Positions 14,882-22,150 of a DNA stretch of 64,000 nucleotides are shown here, piece by piece. Position numbers and translations under genes: made by a program. Within the stretch, counting starts at the first letter, position 1. Each line of letters opens with the position of its first letter. A model generated the notes under the pieces. That model made no database searches and was not told the DNA's origin. It worked only from the letters and a program-made list of their open reading frames with translations. The stretch is taken from contig NZ_CP042829.1 in NCBI RefSeq assembly GCF_008838325.1, positions 1,736,001 to 1,800,000 on the forward strand. Reading direction: 5' to 3'. The stretch comes from Tepidiforma bonchosmolovskayae. GTDB taxonomy: Bacteria > Chloroflexota > Dehalococcoidia > Tepidiformales > Tepidiformaceae.

Positions 14882-15547
14882 TCAGTAGTTCGAAACGTTC
14901 AGCTCGTCCATGTGCCCGGTGACCGTGTAGATCACCCGCTCGCAGATGTTCGTGCACCGGTCAGCGATTCGCTCCAGGTTGTGGGCGGTCCAGAGAAGAT
15001 ACGTGTTCCGCTGGATCGTCGACGGGTCGGCAACCATCGCCCGGAACGCCTCCTCGTACACACTGTCCTGCAGCCGGTCCACCTCGTCGTCCGCGTGGCA
15101 GATCTGCCGCGCCGCATCGACATCGAGGTCGATGTACGCCTTCAGCGAATCCCGGAGCATCGCCACGGCCCGGTCGGCCATCGCCGGGATGTACCCCAGC
15201 TTCCGCGGCAGCGGCTCCGGCTCCATCATCGTGTTGATCCGGGCTACCCCTTCCGCGTGGTCGGCGATCCGCTCGAGGTCCGTGATGATATACAGCACGC
15301 TCACCAGCGCCCGCAGGTCCGTCGCCATCGGCTGCTGCGTGGCCACAACGGCAATCGTCCGGTCTTCAATCTCGAAGCGCTTGCGATTGATCTTCGCGTC
15401 GTCTGCAATGATTCGCCGCGACCACTCCACGTCGCCGTCGCGCAGGGATTCCATCGCGTCGAGGATGGCTTTCTCGGTCATCGAGCCGAGCGTCAGCACG
15501 TCGTCCTGGAGCTGCCGGAGCTCCGCCTTGAACAGGTCCCGTGTCAT
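14882..15547 (-). CDS. phoU: Phosphate signalling protein PhoU
   Basis: A 221-residue all-helical protein made of two PhoU repeats. The metal-binding motifs are visible: LVSVLYIITDLERIADHAEG (first half) and LLWTAHNLERIADRCTNICE (second half), both of the ExxRxxDxxxN/E type. PhoU links the Pst transporter with the PhoR kinase and keeps the Pho regulon off when phosphate is plentiful. It is the last gene of the pstSCAB-phoU operon, 23 nt after pstB, as in many bacteria. Confidence 0.95.
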   Translation of the reverse strand: MTRDLFKAELRQLQDDVLTLGSMTEKAILDAMESLRDGDVEWSRRIIADDAKINRKRFEIEDRTIAVVATQQPMATDLRALVSVLYIITDLERIADHAEGVARINTMMEPEPLPRKLGYIPAMADRAVAMLRDSLKAYIDLDVDAARQICHADDEVDRLQDSVYEEAFRAMVADPSTIQRNTYLLWTAHNLERIADRCTNICERVIYTVTGHMDELNVSNY

Positions 15548-15570: not shown

Positions 15571-16458
15571 TTAGCCGAAGCGTCCGCTGATGTAGTCCTC
15601 GGTACGCCGGTCTTTCGGAGTCGTAAAGAGTTCCTCAGTGGGGCCGTATTCTACCAGCTGCCCGGCCACCCGCTCGTCCGTGAGCATGAACGCCGTGTAG
15701 TCCGAGACGCGCGCCGCCTGCTGCATGTTGTGCGTCACGATGATGATCGTGTAGTCCTTCGCAAGCTCCCGCATCAGGTCCTCGATCTTCAGCGTCGCGA
15801 TCGGGTCCAGCGCCGAACACGGCTCGTCCATCAGGATGATGTCCGGCGCAGTCGCAATCGCCCGCGCGATGCACAGCCGCTGCTGCTGGCCGCCCGAGAG
15901 CGCCAGCCCCGACTTGTTCAGGTCGTCCTTCACCTCGTCCCAGAGCGCCGCCCGCCGGAGCGACTCCTCCACCAGCCGGTCCTTGTCCCCCTTGAACCCG
16001 TTGACCTTCGCCCCGAACAGGATGTTTTCTTTAATCGACCGCGGGAACGGGTTCGGCTTCTGGAACACCATCCCGACCCGCCGGCGAACCTCCACCGGGT
16101 CAACCGACTTGTCGTAAATATCCTGCCCGTCGAGGTAGACCGTTCCCTCGATCCGCACATTCGGGATCAGGTCGTTCATCCGGTTGAAGCAGCGCAGGAG
16201 CGTGCTCTTCCCGCAGCCCGAGGGCCCGATGAGCGCCGTTACCTTGTTCCGCGGAATCTTGAACGAGACGTTCGTCAGCGCCTGCTTCTGCCCGTACCAG
16301 AGCGAAAGCCCCCGCACTTCGATCGTCGGGTTCGGAATATCCTCCAGGATGGCACCCTGGCTCGCTCCCTGCGGCCGGAGATGCTGCTCGGCGCCGTCCC
16401 GGCCGAGGGCCGGCACCCGCGTCAGCGTCGTCGGCTGCGTCTGCTGTTCAGTCATCAC
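15571..16458 (-). CDS. pstB: Phosphate ABC transporter ATP-binding protein PstB
   Basis: A 295-residue ABC ATPase. It has Walker [21 protein letters not shown], the Q-loop FQKPNPFP, the signature [16 protein letters not shown], Walker [14 protein letters not shown] and the switch [14 protein letters not shown]. The phosphate-specific motifs CFNRMND and VFQKPNPFP identify it as PstB. An N-terminal extension of about 40 residues ([15 protein letters not shown]) precedes the domain, longer than in E. coli. GTG at 16458 and ATG at 16455 both follow a GAGGAGG site; either could be used. Confidence 0.95.
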
Positions 16459-16476: not shown

Positions 16477-17373
16477 CTAGAACCGCCGCTGCAGCTTCTG
16501 CCGCAGGAAAATTGCCACGGAATTCATCAACAGCAACACCACCAGCAGCACGATGATGCCTGCCGCGGCCACCCCCTGGAAATCCTGCTGCGGCCGCGAC
16601 ACCCAGTTGAAAATCTGGATCGGCAGCACCGTGAACCGGTCGAGCGGCCCGCTGGGCGTGAACGGCACATACGTCAGTGCGCCAATCGTAATCAGCGGCG
16701 CGCTCTCGCCGATCGCCCGGGAGGCGGCAAGGATGTTCCCGGTCAGGATGCCCGGCAGCGCGTACGGCAGCACGTGGTACCGGATCGTTTCCCACCGCGT
16801 CGCGCCCACCCCGTACGACGCATCCCGGATGCTCGGCGGAACGGCCCGCAGCGCCTCCTGCGTCGCCACCACGATGATCGGCAGAATCAGCAGCGCCATC
16901 GTCAGCGAACCCGCCAGCACGCTCCGCCCGAGCTCCATCCACCGCACAAACACCTGCAGCCCCAGCAGCCCGTAGATGATGGAGGGCACCGCCGCCAGGT
17001 TCGAAATGTTAATCTGGATGAAGCTCTTCAGCTTCCCCTCCCGCGCGTACTCCTCCAGGTAGATCGCCGACATCACCCCAATCGGCAGCGCAATGACGAT
17101 CGTAAAAAACATCATGTACGCCGTGCCGTAGATCGCCGCCTTCGCCCCGGCCCGGTCCGGGAACCGCGAGTCGAAGCTCGTCAGGAACTGCCAGTCCAGC
17201 CACGGGAGGCCGGACACGAACGTATCGATGAGCAGCCAGACGAGCATCCCCAGACCGACCGCAATGGCGACCAGGCCGATGCCCGTGAAAATGACCCCCG
17301 TCACCTTCCGGAAGCCCAGCCGCGGCCGAAACTGCTCCCGCGCCGGGAACTGCTCCGCAGTCGTTACTGCCAT
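16477..17373 (-). CDS. pstA: Phosphate ABC transporter permease PstA
   Basis: A 298-residue permease with six membrane segments and the binding-protein-dependent permease EAA loop (LPYALPGILTGNILAASRAI then GESAPLITIGA). The segments LEEYAREGKLKSFIQINI and AVPSIIYGLLGLQVFV are typical of PstA. With PstC it forms the inner-membrane channel for phosphate. Its ATG overlaps the pstC stop by one base (TGATG), so the two are coupled. Confidence 0.94.
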   Translation of the reverse strand: MAVTTAEQFPAREQFRPRLGFRKVTGVIFTGIGLVAIAVGLGMLVWLLIDTFVSGLPWLDWQFLTSFDSRFPDRAGAKAAIYGTAYMMFFTIVIALPIGVMSAIYLEEYAREGKLKSFIQINISNLAAVPSIIYGLLGLQVFVRWMELGRSVLAGSLTMALLILPIIVVATQEALRAVPPSIRDASYGVGATRWETIRYHVLPYALPGILTGNILAASRAIGESAPLITIGALTYVPFTPSGPLDRFTVLPIQIFNWVSRPQQDFQGVAAAGIIVLLVVLLLMNSVAIFLRQKLQRRF

Positions 17374-18317
17374 CAGTCGTACACCTCACGGAATTTCCGC
17401 ACGAACCAGAAGCTGAAGATGTTCATCACGAACGTCAGCACGAACAGCGTGGTCCCGACCGCGAACAGCGTCCGGTACGCGAGCGAGCCGTACGGCGTAT
17501 CCCCCAGGCTGACCTGCACGATGTAGGTCGTCATCGTCTCGACCGGCACCCGCGGGTCGAAGGTGAACGTTGGGTTCTGCCCGGCCGCAATCGCCACAAT
17601 CATCGTCTCGCCGACCGCTCGCGAGAGCGCCAGGATGATGGACGCCACGATGCCGGAGAGTGCCGCCGGCACCACGACCCGCGTTGCCACCTCCATCCGC
17701 GTCGCCCCGAGCCCGTACGCCCCTTCCCGCAGCGCCTGCGGCACCGACGACATCGCGTCCTCGCTGAGCGAGGCCACCAGCGGTACGATCATCACGCCCA
17801 TCACGATGCCCGGGCTGAGCGAGTTGAACAGCGTCATGTCAATGAACCGCTGCAGGAACGGTGTCATCACCGTCAGCGCGAAGAAGCCGTACACCACCGT
17901 CGGCACCCCGGCCAGCACCTCGAGCGCCGGCTTCAGCACCGCCCGCGCCTTCGGGTGCGCGAACTCGCTCAGGTAGATTGCCGACATCAGCCCCAGCGGC
18001 ACCGCGACCACCAGCGCGATGAGCGACGTCAGCGCCGTCGCCGAAACCAGCGGCCAAATGCCGAACTTCTTAATCGAGAAGAGCGGCGTCCACTGGGTCT
18101 CCGTAATGAACTCGACGAACGAGACCACCCGGAAGAACGCGATCGTCTCGCCCGCCAGCGACAGGATGATGCCCGCCGTCGTGAACGCCCCGATCGTCGC
18201 TGCCACAAAGAACAGCCCTGCGATAGCGCCCTCTTTGAGCTGCCGCGACCGCTTATGCCCAAGGCTTACCCGCGACGGGTAGGCCCCCTTCCAAACGTCC
18301 TGCGCCACGGTTCGCAC
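17373..18317 (-). CDS. pstC: Phosphate ABC transporter permease PstC
   Basis: A 314-residue permease with six membrane segments. The long periplasmic loop after the first segment ([15 protein letters not shown]) and the PstC hallmark [19 protein letters not shown] are present, as are [20 protein letters not shown] and [20 protein letters not shown] (EAA loop). It starts with GTG at 18317, 94 nt after pstS; the gap holds a strong hairpin (18337-18370). Confidence 0.94.
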
Positions 18318-18411: not shown

Positions 18412-19542
18412 TTACTTCAGGTACCGGTCGAGCGTCGCGCCCACCTCTGCGCCGTTCGGGAAGAGCGTGCCGAGCGTCTTCGCCTCGAACCGCTTGGTGA
18501 TCGCCGCGTACAGCTCGTCGGTCAGCGGGATGTAGCCCACTTCCTTCGTCGGGATGATCGGCGTGAAGCTCTTGCTCAGGTAGAACTTCACGAACGCCTG
18601 CACTTCCGGCCGCTCGGCGGCTTCCTTGCGGACGTAGATGAAGATCGGGCGCGAGAGCGGCTGGTACTCGCCGGACTTAATCGTCTCCGGGCTGGGCAGC
18701 ACACACTTGCCGTTATTGTTGTCAATGGCGACGAGCTTCAGCTTCCCCGTGTTCTCCACATAGTACGCATACCCGAAGTAGCCAAGCGCATTCTCGTCGC
18801 CGCTCACGCCCTGCACGAGGATGTTGTCATCCTCCGATGCCTGGTAGTCGCCGCGGCTCGCCTTCTCCTTGCCGTTGATGGCCTGCGTGAAGTAGTCAAA
18901 CGTCCCTGAGTCGGTACCAGCACCGTACAGCTTCAGCGGCCTGTCCGGGAAGGAATCCCGCACCTGCTTCCAGTTCGTGATCTTCCCCTGGGCATCCGGC
19001 TCCCAGATCTTCTTCAGCTCCGCGACCGTCAGGCACTGGGCCCACGTGTTCTTCGGGCTCACCACCACCGACAGCCCGTCGTAGGCCACCGGGAGCTCGA
19101 TGTACTCGATCCCCTTCGCCTTGCATGCGTCGACTTCCTTCGGATCGATCGGCCGCGAGGCGTCCTGGATGTCCGTTTCGCCGTTGCAGAACTTCTTGAA
19201 GCCGCCGCCCGTGCCGGAGATGCCGACCGAAATGCGGACGTCCTTCGCGTACTTGCGGAACTCCTCCGCCGCCGCTGCCGTCACCGGGTACACCGTCGAC
19301 GACCCGTCGATGATGATCTCGCCCTTCAGCTTCGCGAGCTCATCCTTGTTCGCCGGCGGCACCGGCTTCCCCGCCGCGGTCGTCGGCTTGTCGCCAGGCA
19401 TCGTCGCCGTGGAGCCGCCTGCCGGCGTCTCCTTCGTGGTGTCATCGTCGTCGCCGCCGCACGCGACCGCGACCAGGGCGATGAGGGCCACGAGCGCCCC
19501 AAACAGGAACGCCCACTGCCCTCCCCGTACGTTGCGAAGCAT
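18412..19542 (-). CDS. pstS: Phosphate-binding lipoprotein PstS
   Basis: A 376-residue protein with a lipoprotein signal (residues 11-28, [13 protein letters not shown], lipobox Cys28), then an acidic linker GGDDDDTTK and a Thr/Gly/Pro-rich spacer. The phosphate-binding protein motifs follow: [32 protein letters not shown] and [17 protein letters not shown]. By family it catches phosphate outside the membrane for PstCAB. ATG 19542 follows AGGGGGA; the longer frame to 19602 lacks a site and starts within the promoter. The gene is first in the operon and has a CATACT -10 box and PHO-like repeats upstream. Confidence 0.95.
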
Positions 19543-19563
19543 CAAAATCTTCCCCCTGAAGTC

Positions 19564-19569
19564 AGTATG
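19564..19569 (-). promoter_or_regulatory. -10 box of the pst operon
   Basis: Reads CATACT on the minus strand. The sequence 17 nt upstream (AGGATG) does not resemble a -35, as expected for an activator-dependent promoter. Confidence 0.55.
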
Positions 19570-19600
19570 GTTGGTGCTTCGTGCCGCATCCTCCTCCCGC

Positions 19601-19620
19601 ACCTTTAACCCCGGTTTAAC
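19601..19620 (-). promoter_or_regulatory. Putative PHO box upstream of pstS
   Basis: On the minus strand GTTAAA occurs twice with start-to-start spacing of exactly 11 bp (19620-19615 and 19609-19604), within GTTAAACCGGGGTTAAAGGT. Direct repeats spaced 11 bp are the hallmark of PhoB/PhoP sites in E. coli, Bacillus and Streptomyces. It lies about 35 bp upstream of the -10 box, between pst and the divergent PhoB-like gene. Confidence 0.6.
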
Positions 19621-19792
19621 GCCCCGGCACCGCCCCGAGCGCCAATCGCCAACGTTTTACACGCCATTTGCACCCCGTCGCGGATCCCCGCACCCCCGCC
19701 GCCGAACATACCCGCAGGCAGCAGGCGGACGACGGCCCCGCCCCGCTGCCTCCCCTCAGGCGGCCGGGGGCTCCGGCCCCGTCAGCTCCCCC

Positions 19793-19825
19793 GCTCCGGT
19801 ACCCGCCGGGTGGCGGGCCCGGAGC
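19793..19825. promoter_or_regulatory. Inverted repeat over the regulator promoter
   Basis: GCTCCGG (19793-19799) pairs with CCGGAGC (19819-19825), and CCCGCC (19802-19807) with GGCGGG (19812-19817), around a 4-nt loop, with a small internal mismatch. It ends 8 bp before the -10 box at 19834, so it covers the expected -35 region of the response-regulator promoter. It could be an operator or only a chance GC-rich structure. Confidence 0.35.
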
Positions 19826-19833
19826 TCCCGGCG

Positions 19834-19839
19834 CATACT
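19834..19839 (+). promoter_or_regulatory. -10 box of the PhoB-like gene
   Basis: CATACT, 29 nt before the ATG at 19869. AAGG at 19860-19863 is only a weak ribosome site. Confidence 0.4.
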
Positions 19840-19868
19840 CGAACTACCCCAACGGCCGCAAGGCGCCC

Positions 19869-20549
19869 ATGGCCCAGAAAATCCTCCTCGTCGACGACGA
19901 AGCCAACATCCGCGACCTCAGCGCCCTCTACCTCGAAAAAGAGGGTTTCACCGTCGAGCACGCCGCCGACGGCCGCGATGCCCTCGCCCGCTTCGCCCAG
20001 TCGCCGCCGGCCCTCGTCGTTCTCGACGTCATGATGCCCGGCCTCGATGGCTTCGAAGTCCTCCGCGAACTCCGCCGCGAAAGCGACGTCCCCGTCATCA
20101 TGCTCACCGCACGCTCCGAAGACATCGACAAGATTGTCGGCCTCGAACTCGGCGCCGACGATTACATGGCCAAGCCCTTCAACCCCCGCGAACTCGTGGC
20201 CCGCGTCAAGCGCATCCTCCACCGCGTCGAAGGCGGCCGGAAGCCGCAAACTGCCATCACCATCGGCAACCTCAGCGTCGATAAAGCCCGCCGCGAAGCC
20301 CGCGTCGACGGCCAGCTCCTCGACCTCCGCACCAAGGAGTTCGACCTCCTCGTCGCCTTCGTCGAAAACCCCGGCATCGCCCTCACCCGCGACCAGCTCC
20401 TCGGTTCCGTCTGGGGCTACGACTTCGCCGGCGAAACCCGCACCGTCGATGTCCACGTCCAGCACCTCCGCTCTAAACTGGTCAACGCGACCGTCCAGAT
20501 CGAAACCCTGCGCGGAGTCGGCTACAAACTCGTCGAACCCGAGCCCTGA
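19869..20549 (+). CDS. PhoB/OmpR-family response regulator
   Basis: A 226-residue protein of standard length. The receiver domain (1-115) has the acidic pair DD in [13 protein letters not shown], the phosphorylated Asp in [15 protein letters not shown] (near residue 53), Thr in IMLTARSE and Lys in [10 protein letters not shown]. The winged-helix domain (about 130-225) has [45 protein letters not shown] and the wing [10 protein letters not shown]. Its place, divergent from pst and followed by a kinase, makes it the likely PhoB/PhoP of the phosphate regulon. This role is inferred from context. Confidence 0.9.
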
Positions 20550-20626: not shown

Positions 20627-22150
20627 ATGGGTAGCCTCCAGGTCCGCCTGCTCTTCACCTACCTCTTCATCATCGCGGTCACCCTCTTCCTCGCCGCCCT
20701 CTCCCTCTTCCTCCAGATCGGCGGCTACCGCGACGACATCTCCTACGGCAACCTCGAGGACCTCGGCCGCCTCATCAACGCCCAGGCCAACGCCGAGCTC
20801 CAGGCACGCCTCGAAACCGCCCCCGGCGACCCCGTCCCGACCACCAACGACCTCCTCCTCACCCTCCGCAGCTTCCTCGGCCGGCCCAACCGCGTCTCCG
20901 CCGAAACCGCCCTCGCCCTCGTCGACGCGAACGGACGCGTCATCCCCGGGCTCACCTCCGCCCCCGCCGACCTCTCCCTCGACGACGCCGTCGTCCGCGA
21001 CCTCGCCAGCCAGCCGCTCCCCCCGCCCGGCTCCCCCGCCGCCCTCGAACCCCGCCGCTGCCGCCTTGAGGTCCCCGGGCGCGAACCCCTCCTCTGCGTC
21101 TCCATGGCCCTCGAGCCCGAAGTTCTCCGGGCCCTCAGCGAAACCGGCGCCGCCGCCATCATCGTCGCCCGGCCCGCCGCCTCCCTCGGCGAAATCGTCG
21201 GCGACCTCATGCCCCGCCTCCTCTTCTCGGGCCTCATCGGCGTCGCCGCTGCCCTCGTCCTCGGCTTCGCCTTCAGCCAGAGCGTCGCCGCCCCCCTCCG
21301 CAACATCGCCCGCGCGGCCCGCTCCGTCGCTCGCGGCAACTACCGACAGCGCGTGCCCGCCACCGGCCCCCGCGAGGTCCGCGACCTCGCCGCCAATTTC
21401 AACCGCATGACCGAAGAAGTCCAGCGCTCCCAGCAAACCCTCCGCGACTTCCTCGCCAACATCTCCCACGAACTCAAGACCCCCCTCACCTCCATCCGTG
21501 GCTTCAGCGAGGCCATCCTCGACGGCACCATCGATGACCCCGAGGGCATCCAGCGCTCCGCCCGCGTCATCAGCGACGAATCCGCCCGCGTCCTCCGCCT
21601 CGTCCAGGAGCTCCTCGACCTCTCCCGCATCGAATCCGGCCAGGTCTCCATGGAGCAGAACGACGTCGACCTCAGCGAGCTCTTCGCCCACCTCGCCGAT
21701 GTCTTCAGCCTCCGCGCCGAAGAGCACGGCATCCGCCTCGAGTTCGCCCCCTCCGGCACGGCCCGCGTCCGCGGCGACTTCGACCGCCTCGAGCAGGTCA
21801 TGAACAACCTCATCGACAACGCCCTCCGCTACACCCCGCCCGGCGGCACCGTCCGCGTCACCTGCCGCGACCTCCAGCCGGGCACCCTCCAGGTCGCCGT
21901 CTCCGATACCGGCCCCGGCATCCCGGCCGAAGACCTGCCCCACCTCTTCGAGCGCTTCTACCGCAGCCGCAACAGCCGCGAATCCCCCGGCAGCCGCAGG
22001 GGCCACGGCCTCGGCCTCGCCATCGCCCGCGAAATCGTCCGGGCCCACGGCGGCGAAATCTGGGCCACCAGCGAACTCGGCCGCGGCACCACCTTCGTCT
22101 TCACCCTTCCCATTGCGGGCCGAGCAGCGCCGCGAGCCGCCGCGCGATGA
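20627..22150 (+). CDS. PhoR-like sensor histidine kinase
   Basis: A 507-residue membrane kinase. There are two membrane segments (about 8-32 and 200-225) enclosing a periplasmic region of about 165 residues. A HAMP domain follows (APLRNIARAARSVARGNYRQ), then HisKA with FLANISHELKTPLTSIRGFS (phosphorylated His near 288) and HATPase_c with N (NNLIDNALRYTPPGG), G1 (VSDTGPGIP), F (LFERFYRS) and G2 (GHGLGLAIAREIV) boxes. It begins 77 nt after the response regulator and is probably its partner; phosphate sensing is inferred from the pst neighbourhood. The 3' end overlaps the convergent gene by 50 nt. Confidence 0.9.
   Translation: MGSLQVRLLFTYLFIIAVTLFLAALSLFLQIGGYRDDISYGNLEDLGRLINAQANAELQARLETAPGDPVPTTNDLLLTLRSFLGRPNRVSAETALALVDANGRVIPGLTSAPADLSLDDAVVRDLASQPLPPPGSPAALEPRRCRLEVPGREPLLCVSMALEPEVLRALSETGAAAIIVARPAASLGEIVGDLMPRLLFSGLIGVAAALVLGFAFSQSVAAPLRNIARAARSVARGNYRQRVPATGPREVRDLAANFNRMTEEVQRSQQTLRDFLANISHELKTPLTSIRGFSEAILDGTIDDPEGIQRSARVISDESARVLRLVQELLDLSRIESGQVSMEQNDVDLSELFAHLADVFSLRAEEHGIRLEFAPSGTARVRGDFDRLEQVMNNLIDNALRYTPPGGTVRVTCRDLQPGTLQVAVSDTGPGIPAEDLPHLFERFYRSRNSRESPGSRRGHGLGLAIAREIVRAHGGEIWATSELGRGTTFVFTLPIAGRAAPRAAAR

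Follow-up and report, generated by a model that had tools for sequence, protein, structure and literature searches.

A putative 11-bp-spaced PHO box upstream of the pstSCAB-phoU operon of Tepidiforma bonchosmolovskayae and its counterparts in related genomes

The PhoP box of Bacillus is of the TTAACA type, with a TTAA-like half-site and a spacing similar to those of the element described here. According to two reports (PMC4415409, PMC1906773), the E. coli pho box consists of two 11-nt units followed ten bp downstream by a -10 of the type TAN3T/A, with no -35. PMC1906773 describes the cyanobacterial Pho box bound by SphR as CTTAACCT, with 8-bp repeats separated by a 3-bp linker and at least three such repeats for PCC6803, and PMC4415409 gives GTTCACC as the consensus of the Streptomyces PhoP box. 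Phosphate regulators also act on arsenic genes: control by PhoB is known in Agrobacterium and Halomonas, and in Halomonas HAL1 PhoB bound to a putative Pho box at aioBA, as stated in PMC7533571, with related evidence in PMC3834237. No PHO box described for Dehalococcoidia was found in the non-subscription literature searched.

The DNA analysed here (the window, a stretch of 64,000 nucleotides) carries an intact pstSCAB-phoU operon on the minus strand, in which pstS, encoding a phosphate-binding lipoprotein (18412..19542, ATG at 19542; TIGR02136, 329 bits, cut-off 206.6), is followed by pstC (17373..18317; TIGR02138, 257.5 bits, cut-off 196.45), pstA (16477..17373; TIGR00974, 283.6 bits, cut-off 193.45), pstB (15571..16458; TIGR00972, 394.9 bits, cut-off 343.2) and phoU (14882..15547; TIGR02135, 192.1 bits, cut-off 130.25). 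A response regulator (RR) gene (19869..20549, plus strand) and a sensor histidine kinase gene (20627..22150, plus strand; HAMP, HisKA and HATPase_c), whose product is likely the partner of RR, lie divergently on the other side of the repeat. Of the loci that come from a named relative, the closest is L005 of Tepidiforma sp. KatS3mg062, whose pstS is 85% identical to that of the window. In another genome (G022, locus L090), RR is 96% identical and the upstream region is kept, but pstS is only 50% identical to that of the window, so that the body of pstS seems to have been exchanged while its promoter and start were retained. Two further loci (G032:C12, L102; G033:C7, L104) contain two tandem PstS matches that share one open frame, 660 or 663 aa long, which suggests a fused double PstS.

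A direct read of the minus strand from 19620 to 19601 gives GTTAAACCGGGGTTAAAGGT, with GTTAAA beginning at 19620 and again at 19609, an offset of exactly 11 bp, as the original prediction stated. The promoter-distal half-site occupies 19615..19620 and the promoter-proximal half-site 19604..19609, both on the minus strand. With up to two mismatches, GTTAAA-N5-GTTAAA matches once in the 64-kb window, against a mean of 0.05 in 100 shuffles, and the exact form (minus strand, 19620-19604) is a single copy in the whole genome of 2,746,948 bases. The repeat was also said to lie upstream of the pstS -10, and this part of the claim stands; the hexamer presumably meant, CATACT (minus strand, 19564..19569), is not the one that keeps its distance from the box. 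CATACT is conserved within the rows of the genus only and lies 34 nt from the box, and on both grounds it is rejected as a PHO-dependent -10; it is possibly a second promoter or a conserved leader. The pstS -10 of the window is most likely GAGGAT (minus strand, 19593-19588), because an xAxxxT hexamer 10 nt past the proximal half-site is invariant in the family alignment; GAGGAT itself is a poor match to TATAAT. Two 11-nt direct repeat units are followed about 10 nt downstream by the predicted -10, and the repeat stands where a -35 would be.

The conservation of this arrangement was examined in 13 distinct family regions between divergent genes, in each of which RR is divergent to pstS or to a PstS-like gene (L005 and L006 were left out as copies of L087 and L088). 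GTTAAN-N5-RTTAAN at 11 bp is present in 11 of these regions, and the remaining two (L089 and L105) retain the promoter-proximal GTTAAC alone. All 13 aligned rows agree in the TTAA of the proximal half-site and, 10 nt further on, in the A and T of xAxxxT, while their flanks have diverged. Outside the genus, the -10 hexamer is TAnnnT in seven of eight rows and GAACCT in L100; the genus rows have GAGGAT or GAGCAT there.

As a control for the period, TTAA pairs at spacings of 8 to 14 bp were counted in the 200 bp upstream of pstS and compared with shuffles. A pair at 11 bp is present in 19 of the 23 family regions, against a shuffle mean of 0.01; at 8, 9, 10, 12, 13 or 14 bp none of these 23 regions has one. 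The corresponding count for other Chloroflexota is 11 of 22, with two at 9 bp and none at the remaining spacings, and that for Cyanobacteria is six of nine, with 2, 3 and 2 at 8, 12 and 14 bp, respectively. Among the remaining, largely proteobacterial, regions, a pair at 11 bp occurs in 4 of 47 (shuffle mean 0.47). By these counts, pst promoters often carry the TTAA-type box in Chloroflexota and Cyanobacteria and seldom do so elsewhere.

The recurrence of the motif depends on how it is counted. The bare pattern GTTAA-N6-GTTAA occurs at 22 places in 16 of the 38 family genomes, against 21 reversed controls (22 against 13 if the eight controls of the AT-rich genome G017 are left out), and this bare count proves nothing, because the reversed control is approximately equal. 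The family box is distinguished from the control solely by its location and its -10 phase. Fifteen of the 22 places precede pstS, a second pstS (in G009) or pstC (in G004 and G035), and one further place (L123) is divergent to RR, its gene being truncated where the contig ends. When the phased -10 is added and at most one mismatch is allowed, 78 places are found against 40 reversed controls in the 38 genomes, or 71 against 11 in 37 genomes without G017 (7 against 29); these places include pstC sites of the g17 genus, two of which were read (L163 and L164). The GTTAA-N6-GTTAA matches in L119, L135 and L136 look like chance. A GTTAA repeat is also present upstream of an orthologous gene in three g3 genomes (L118, L131 and L132), which carries a PEP-utiliser mobile domain as scanned in L118; the -10 is out of phase, and these three are not counted as PHO sites.

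Across the class, the exact box with TAnnnT is found 31 times, spread over 25 of the 245 genomes, and the reversed control 8 times; the site of the window escapes this pattern, since its -10 starts with G. The family accounts for four of these 31 places, one is outside it without a locus, and 26 are readable outside the family. A pst gene is located downstream in 13 of these 26 (tblastn), and one more (L318) lies upstream of a PBP-domain protein, which brings the pst or phosphate-binding-type loci to 14 of 26. Four box sites with a TATAAT-type -10 are present in a single class genome (G106), and the three that were read (C4, C52 and C76; L314, L318 and L319) precede a PstS-like gene, the PBP gene and a gene for a coiled-coil-like protein.

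Relatives keep the repeat, at the same spacing, before phosphate-transport genes, and for this reason it is very probably the landing site of a regulator that responds to phosphate starvation. The reading as a PHO box, which the original prediction put forward, is supported by the 11-bp period (19/23), the -10 phase (13/13) and the recurrence in relatives before pst genes, pstS, a second pstS and pstC among them. The further suggestion that it may be the lineage's own PHO box needs amending: judged from its distribution, the element is not confined to the lineage, and it is a putative PHO box of the TTAA type that occurs across the class and is near in sequence to the cyanobacterial one.

In the own genome, GTTAAA-N5-GTTAAA with up to two mismatches yields 4 matches (pstS and L002-L004) against 10 reversed controls, which gives no support to a many-site regulon of the exact hexamer motif there. 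Recurrence upstream of other phosphate genes had been named as a check; with the strict and relaxed patterns, whose reach does not extend to strongly degenerate boxes, no other phosphate gene with a box was found in the own genome, and the strict motif is present at pstS only. A single box can serve the entire pstSCAB-phoU operon. The relaxed pattern GYTMA-N6-GTTMA-N11-12-ANNNT identifies two sites in the own genome, that of pstS and GCTAATCTCCCGTTAACCCCGCGACAGGAGCAT at G000:C1:1372107, with 0 controls, and 76 sites against 22 controls in the family (70 against 17 without G017). An own-genome scan allowing two mismatches, including the -10, returns 9 sites against 8 controls, and all of these except the pstS and aquaporin sites are treated as noise.

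The second relaxed site (L166; G000:C1:1372107-1372139, outside the window) is PHO-box-like and starts 41 nt upstream of an aquaporin gene (PF00230), which is followed by an arsC-like gene whose product is of the low-molecular-weight-phosphatase type and arsenate reductase-like (PF01451; TIGR02689, 73.7 bits, below the cut-off of 157.6). The site is found at -41 in all four genus genomes with a close aquaporin (G000, G022, G024 and G026), and G023 and G025 give no match. A weight matrix trained on hand-chosen pst sites only, with 300 shuffles per locus and hence a lowest possible p of 0.003, reaches p≤0.01 at 10 of 30 aquaporin loci, namely at 8 of the 11 with an arsC match beside them and at 2 of the 19 without. 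The matrix fails at L185, L186 and L191, which have arsC beside them, and at all seven g17 loci (L196-L202), and at L187 and L195 the reverse strand outscores the forward strand. The case for a regulatory link to arsenate at the aquaporin/arsC-like operon, which may serve arsenic resistance, is suggestive.

The original prediction of a PhoB-like regulator encoded divergently is confirmed by the OmpR/PhoB-type RR, whose ATG at 19869 lies opposite that of pstS at 19542 and which would be the PHO regulator. RR has a receiver and a winged-helix effector domain (Response_reg, PF00072; Trans_reg_C, PF00486) and scores 216 bits against the PhoB equivalog (TIGR02154), under the curated cut-off of 296.2; it is classed, on these scores, only as an OmpR/PhoB-type regulator. 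RR is likely the binder of the box. The box might instead be the site of another OmpR/PhoB-family regulator, MtrA- or RpaB-like and serving general stress, with the phosphate link being secondary, which we regard as unlikely. All NCBIfam equivalogs shown for RR score under cut-off, the top models being MtrA, CreB, CseB and RpaB, as such an alternative would have it, whereas the closest solved relative of RR is RegX3 (2oqr, E 1.7e-56), followed by MtrA. RegX3 is a phosphate-responsive regulator. The g17 genus also speaks for another regulator: an RR ortholog at E≤1e-70 is absent from all nine of its genomes, the best RR homologs are 43-47% identical in the four genomes examined, and no RR is present in 12-14 kb around the pst genes in the two examined (G033 and G035), and yet most g17 genomes keep their pst boxes. 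A regulator other than RR must therefore, as far as sequence comparison can tell, serve the g17 boxes, and the pairing of RR with the box is one that we infer. The weaker direct repeats upstream of the aquaporin/arsC-like operons point in the same direction, but the divergence of RR from pstS or a PstS-like gene in 13 intergenic regions, and the 13 pst loci and one PBP locus among the 26 outside the family, which exceed the expectation for a general regulator, argue for a phosphate regulator.

Two other explanations concern the DNA itself, and both are very improbable. The hexamers could have arisen by chance or merely be AT-rich parts of the promoter, in either case with no regulator of their own, as any AT hexamer is conspicuous in a GC-rich region and the bare pattern equals its control in the family; against this stand the 11-bp period, with no pair at six other spacings, the constancy of TTAA and of the -10 phase in rows with diverged flanks, and the excess over controls when a phased -10 is required (71 against 11 without G017). 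Alternatively, a repressor dimer could bind a partial palindrome (AACCCCGGTT, plus strand), given that the spacer CCGGG of the window completes a short inverted repeat. The relatives keep the direct repeats and not the spacer, which reads TGCGA, AGCCG, TCTGC, TGTTA, TCCGT or CCGGC, and a palindromic operator is rejected on account of this lack of conservation. With considerable confidence, we take the repeat for the PHO box that governs pstSCAB-phoU, probably worked by RR through the 11-bp repeats and GAGGAT.

In the proposed mechanism of this PHO box, phosphate limitation would lead the histidine kinase (20627) to phosphorylate RR (19869), and two RR molecules would bind in head-to-tail order, one to each of the GTTAAA copies that start 11 bp apart at 19620 and 19609 of the minus strand. 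Standing in for the absent -35, the bound RR would bring RNA polymerase, with sigma attached, to GAGGAT (19593-19588) as the -10, with the result that pstS and the genes behind it would be switched on. RR would probably also act on its own promoter, through an array of half-sites at 19655, 19666 and, in degenerate form, approximately 19688, with a -10 at 19704-19709.

At E≤1e-70, 26 of the 38 family genomes have an RR ortholog, and its upstream DNA is readable in 25 of them (the other, L264, has 28 nt only). In the window, the array on the plus strand comprises TTTTAC at position 0 (19655..19660), ATTTGC at +11 (19666..19671) and a degenerate CCGCAC at +33 (19688..19693), followed by the predicted RR -10, GAACAT (19704..19709). 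The TTAC anchor at 0 is found in 25/25 readable regions, NTTTGC at +11 in 20/25 and TTAC or TAAC at +33 in 17/25, the last being lost in five genus rows; xAxxxT is located at +49 in 23 rows and at +50 in two. The anchor was picked by the half-sites and not by the -10, and the test was composed after the pattern had been seen in a few rows. The distance from the array to the RR -10 is constant, whereas that to the pstS box is variable, which indicates that the 11-bp-phased array probably belongs to RR and suggests that RR is autoregulated through it.

Additionally, the predicted leader of the RR mRNA contains a hairpin (19752..19840, plus strand) that is conserved, with covariation, in 25 family genomes. 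Its folding z is -3.15 in the window and -5.08, -6.93 and -4.52 in L098, L153 and L106, respectively. On 17 sequences, both-side changes occur in 12 of 23 pairs and 92.8% of cells are paired, against 39.0-51.9% when the pairing is slid by 1-3 columns, and none of the five measures is reached in 500 shuffles. There are 31 G-U pairs and only 7 C-A mismatches on the RR strand, a balance that speaks for an RNA read together with RR. The model R1, built on 17 of the 25 genomes (the other eight being G002, G004, G011, G012, G013, G019, G020 and G021), finds the hairpin in 25 of the 38 family genomes at one place each, always upstream of RR, and hence in 25 of the 26 genomes with RR, the 26th being unreadable. 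Against 46 loci outside the family, R1 gives no accepted match (best E 0.043, L007). Rfam gives no match at E≤1 in 19400-20000 of the window, and for L098, L153 and L137 three sub-threshold microRNA matches only, of which MIR160 (24.2 of 48 bits) lies over the L137 hairpin. A nearly invariant GCGCATACT (19832-19840, plus strand) is located right after the hairpin and could be a second -10 (CATACT/TATACT) for RR.

We tentatively propose, as a joint reading that is somewhat less likely than not, that RR may be controlled by its own 11-bp operator and by an undescribed structured RNA in its leader, and that its regulon may extend to the aquaporin/arsC-like operon. If this is true, cells that raise high-affinity phosphate (and hence arsenate) uptake would raise their arsenate defence via the same box. 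The analysis provides a concrete PHO box candidate for Dehalococcoidia, which lets phosphate regulons be read from the genomes of the class. It also suggests that the regulation of phosphate and of arsenic genes may be linked in Chloroflexota of hot springs, and it draws attention to a conserved RNA hairpin of the RR leader for which Rfam has no matching family.

The element resembles the PhoB box of E. coli in its two 11-nt head-to-tail units before pst genes and in the -10 approximately 10 bp downstream, and differs in its half-site, GTTAA[ACT] rather than the CTGTCAT type, and in a regulator that scores under the PhoB equivalog cut-off. With the SphR box it shares the TTAA core, the 11-bp period and the location upstream of pst genes; here, however, TTAA is preceded by G, compared with C/T in Cyanobacteria, and two half-sites are present rather than the at least three of PCC6803. 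The 11-bp direct repeats are also those of the Streptomyces PhoP box, and the relaxed aquaporin sites of L188 and L189 include GTTCA half-sites, but the pst boxes use GTTAA and not GTTCACC, in agreement with the original statement that the motif is neither the E. coli nor the Streptomyces consensus. At the arsenic genes, the likeness to Agrobacterium and Halomonas lies in a phosphate regulator acting there, which in our case is a prediction only; their target is arsenite oxidation (aio), whereas the predicted target here is an aquaporin and arsC-like pair.
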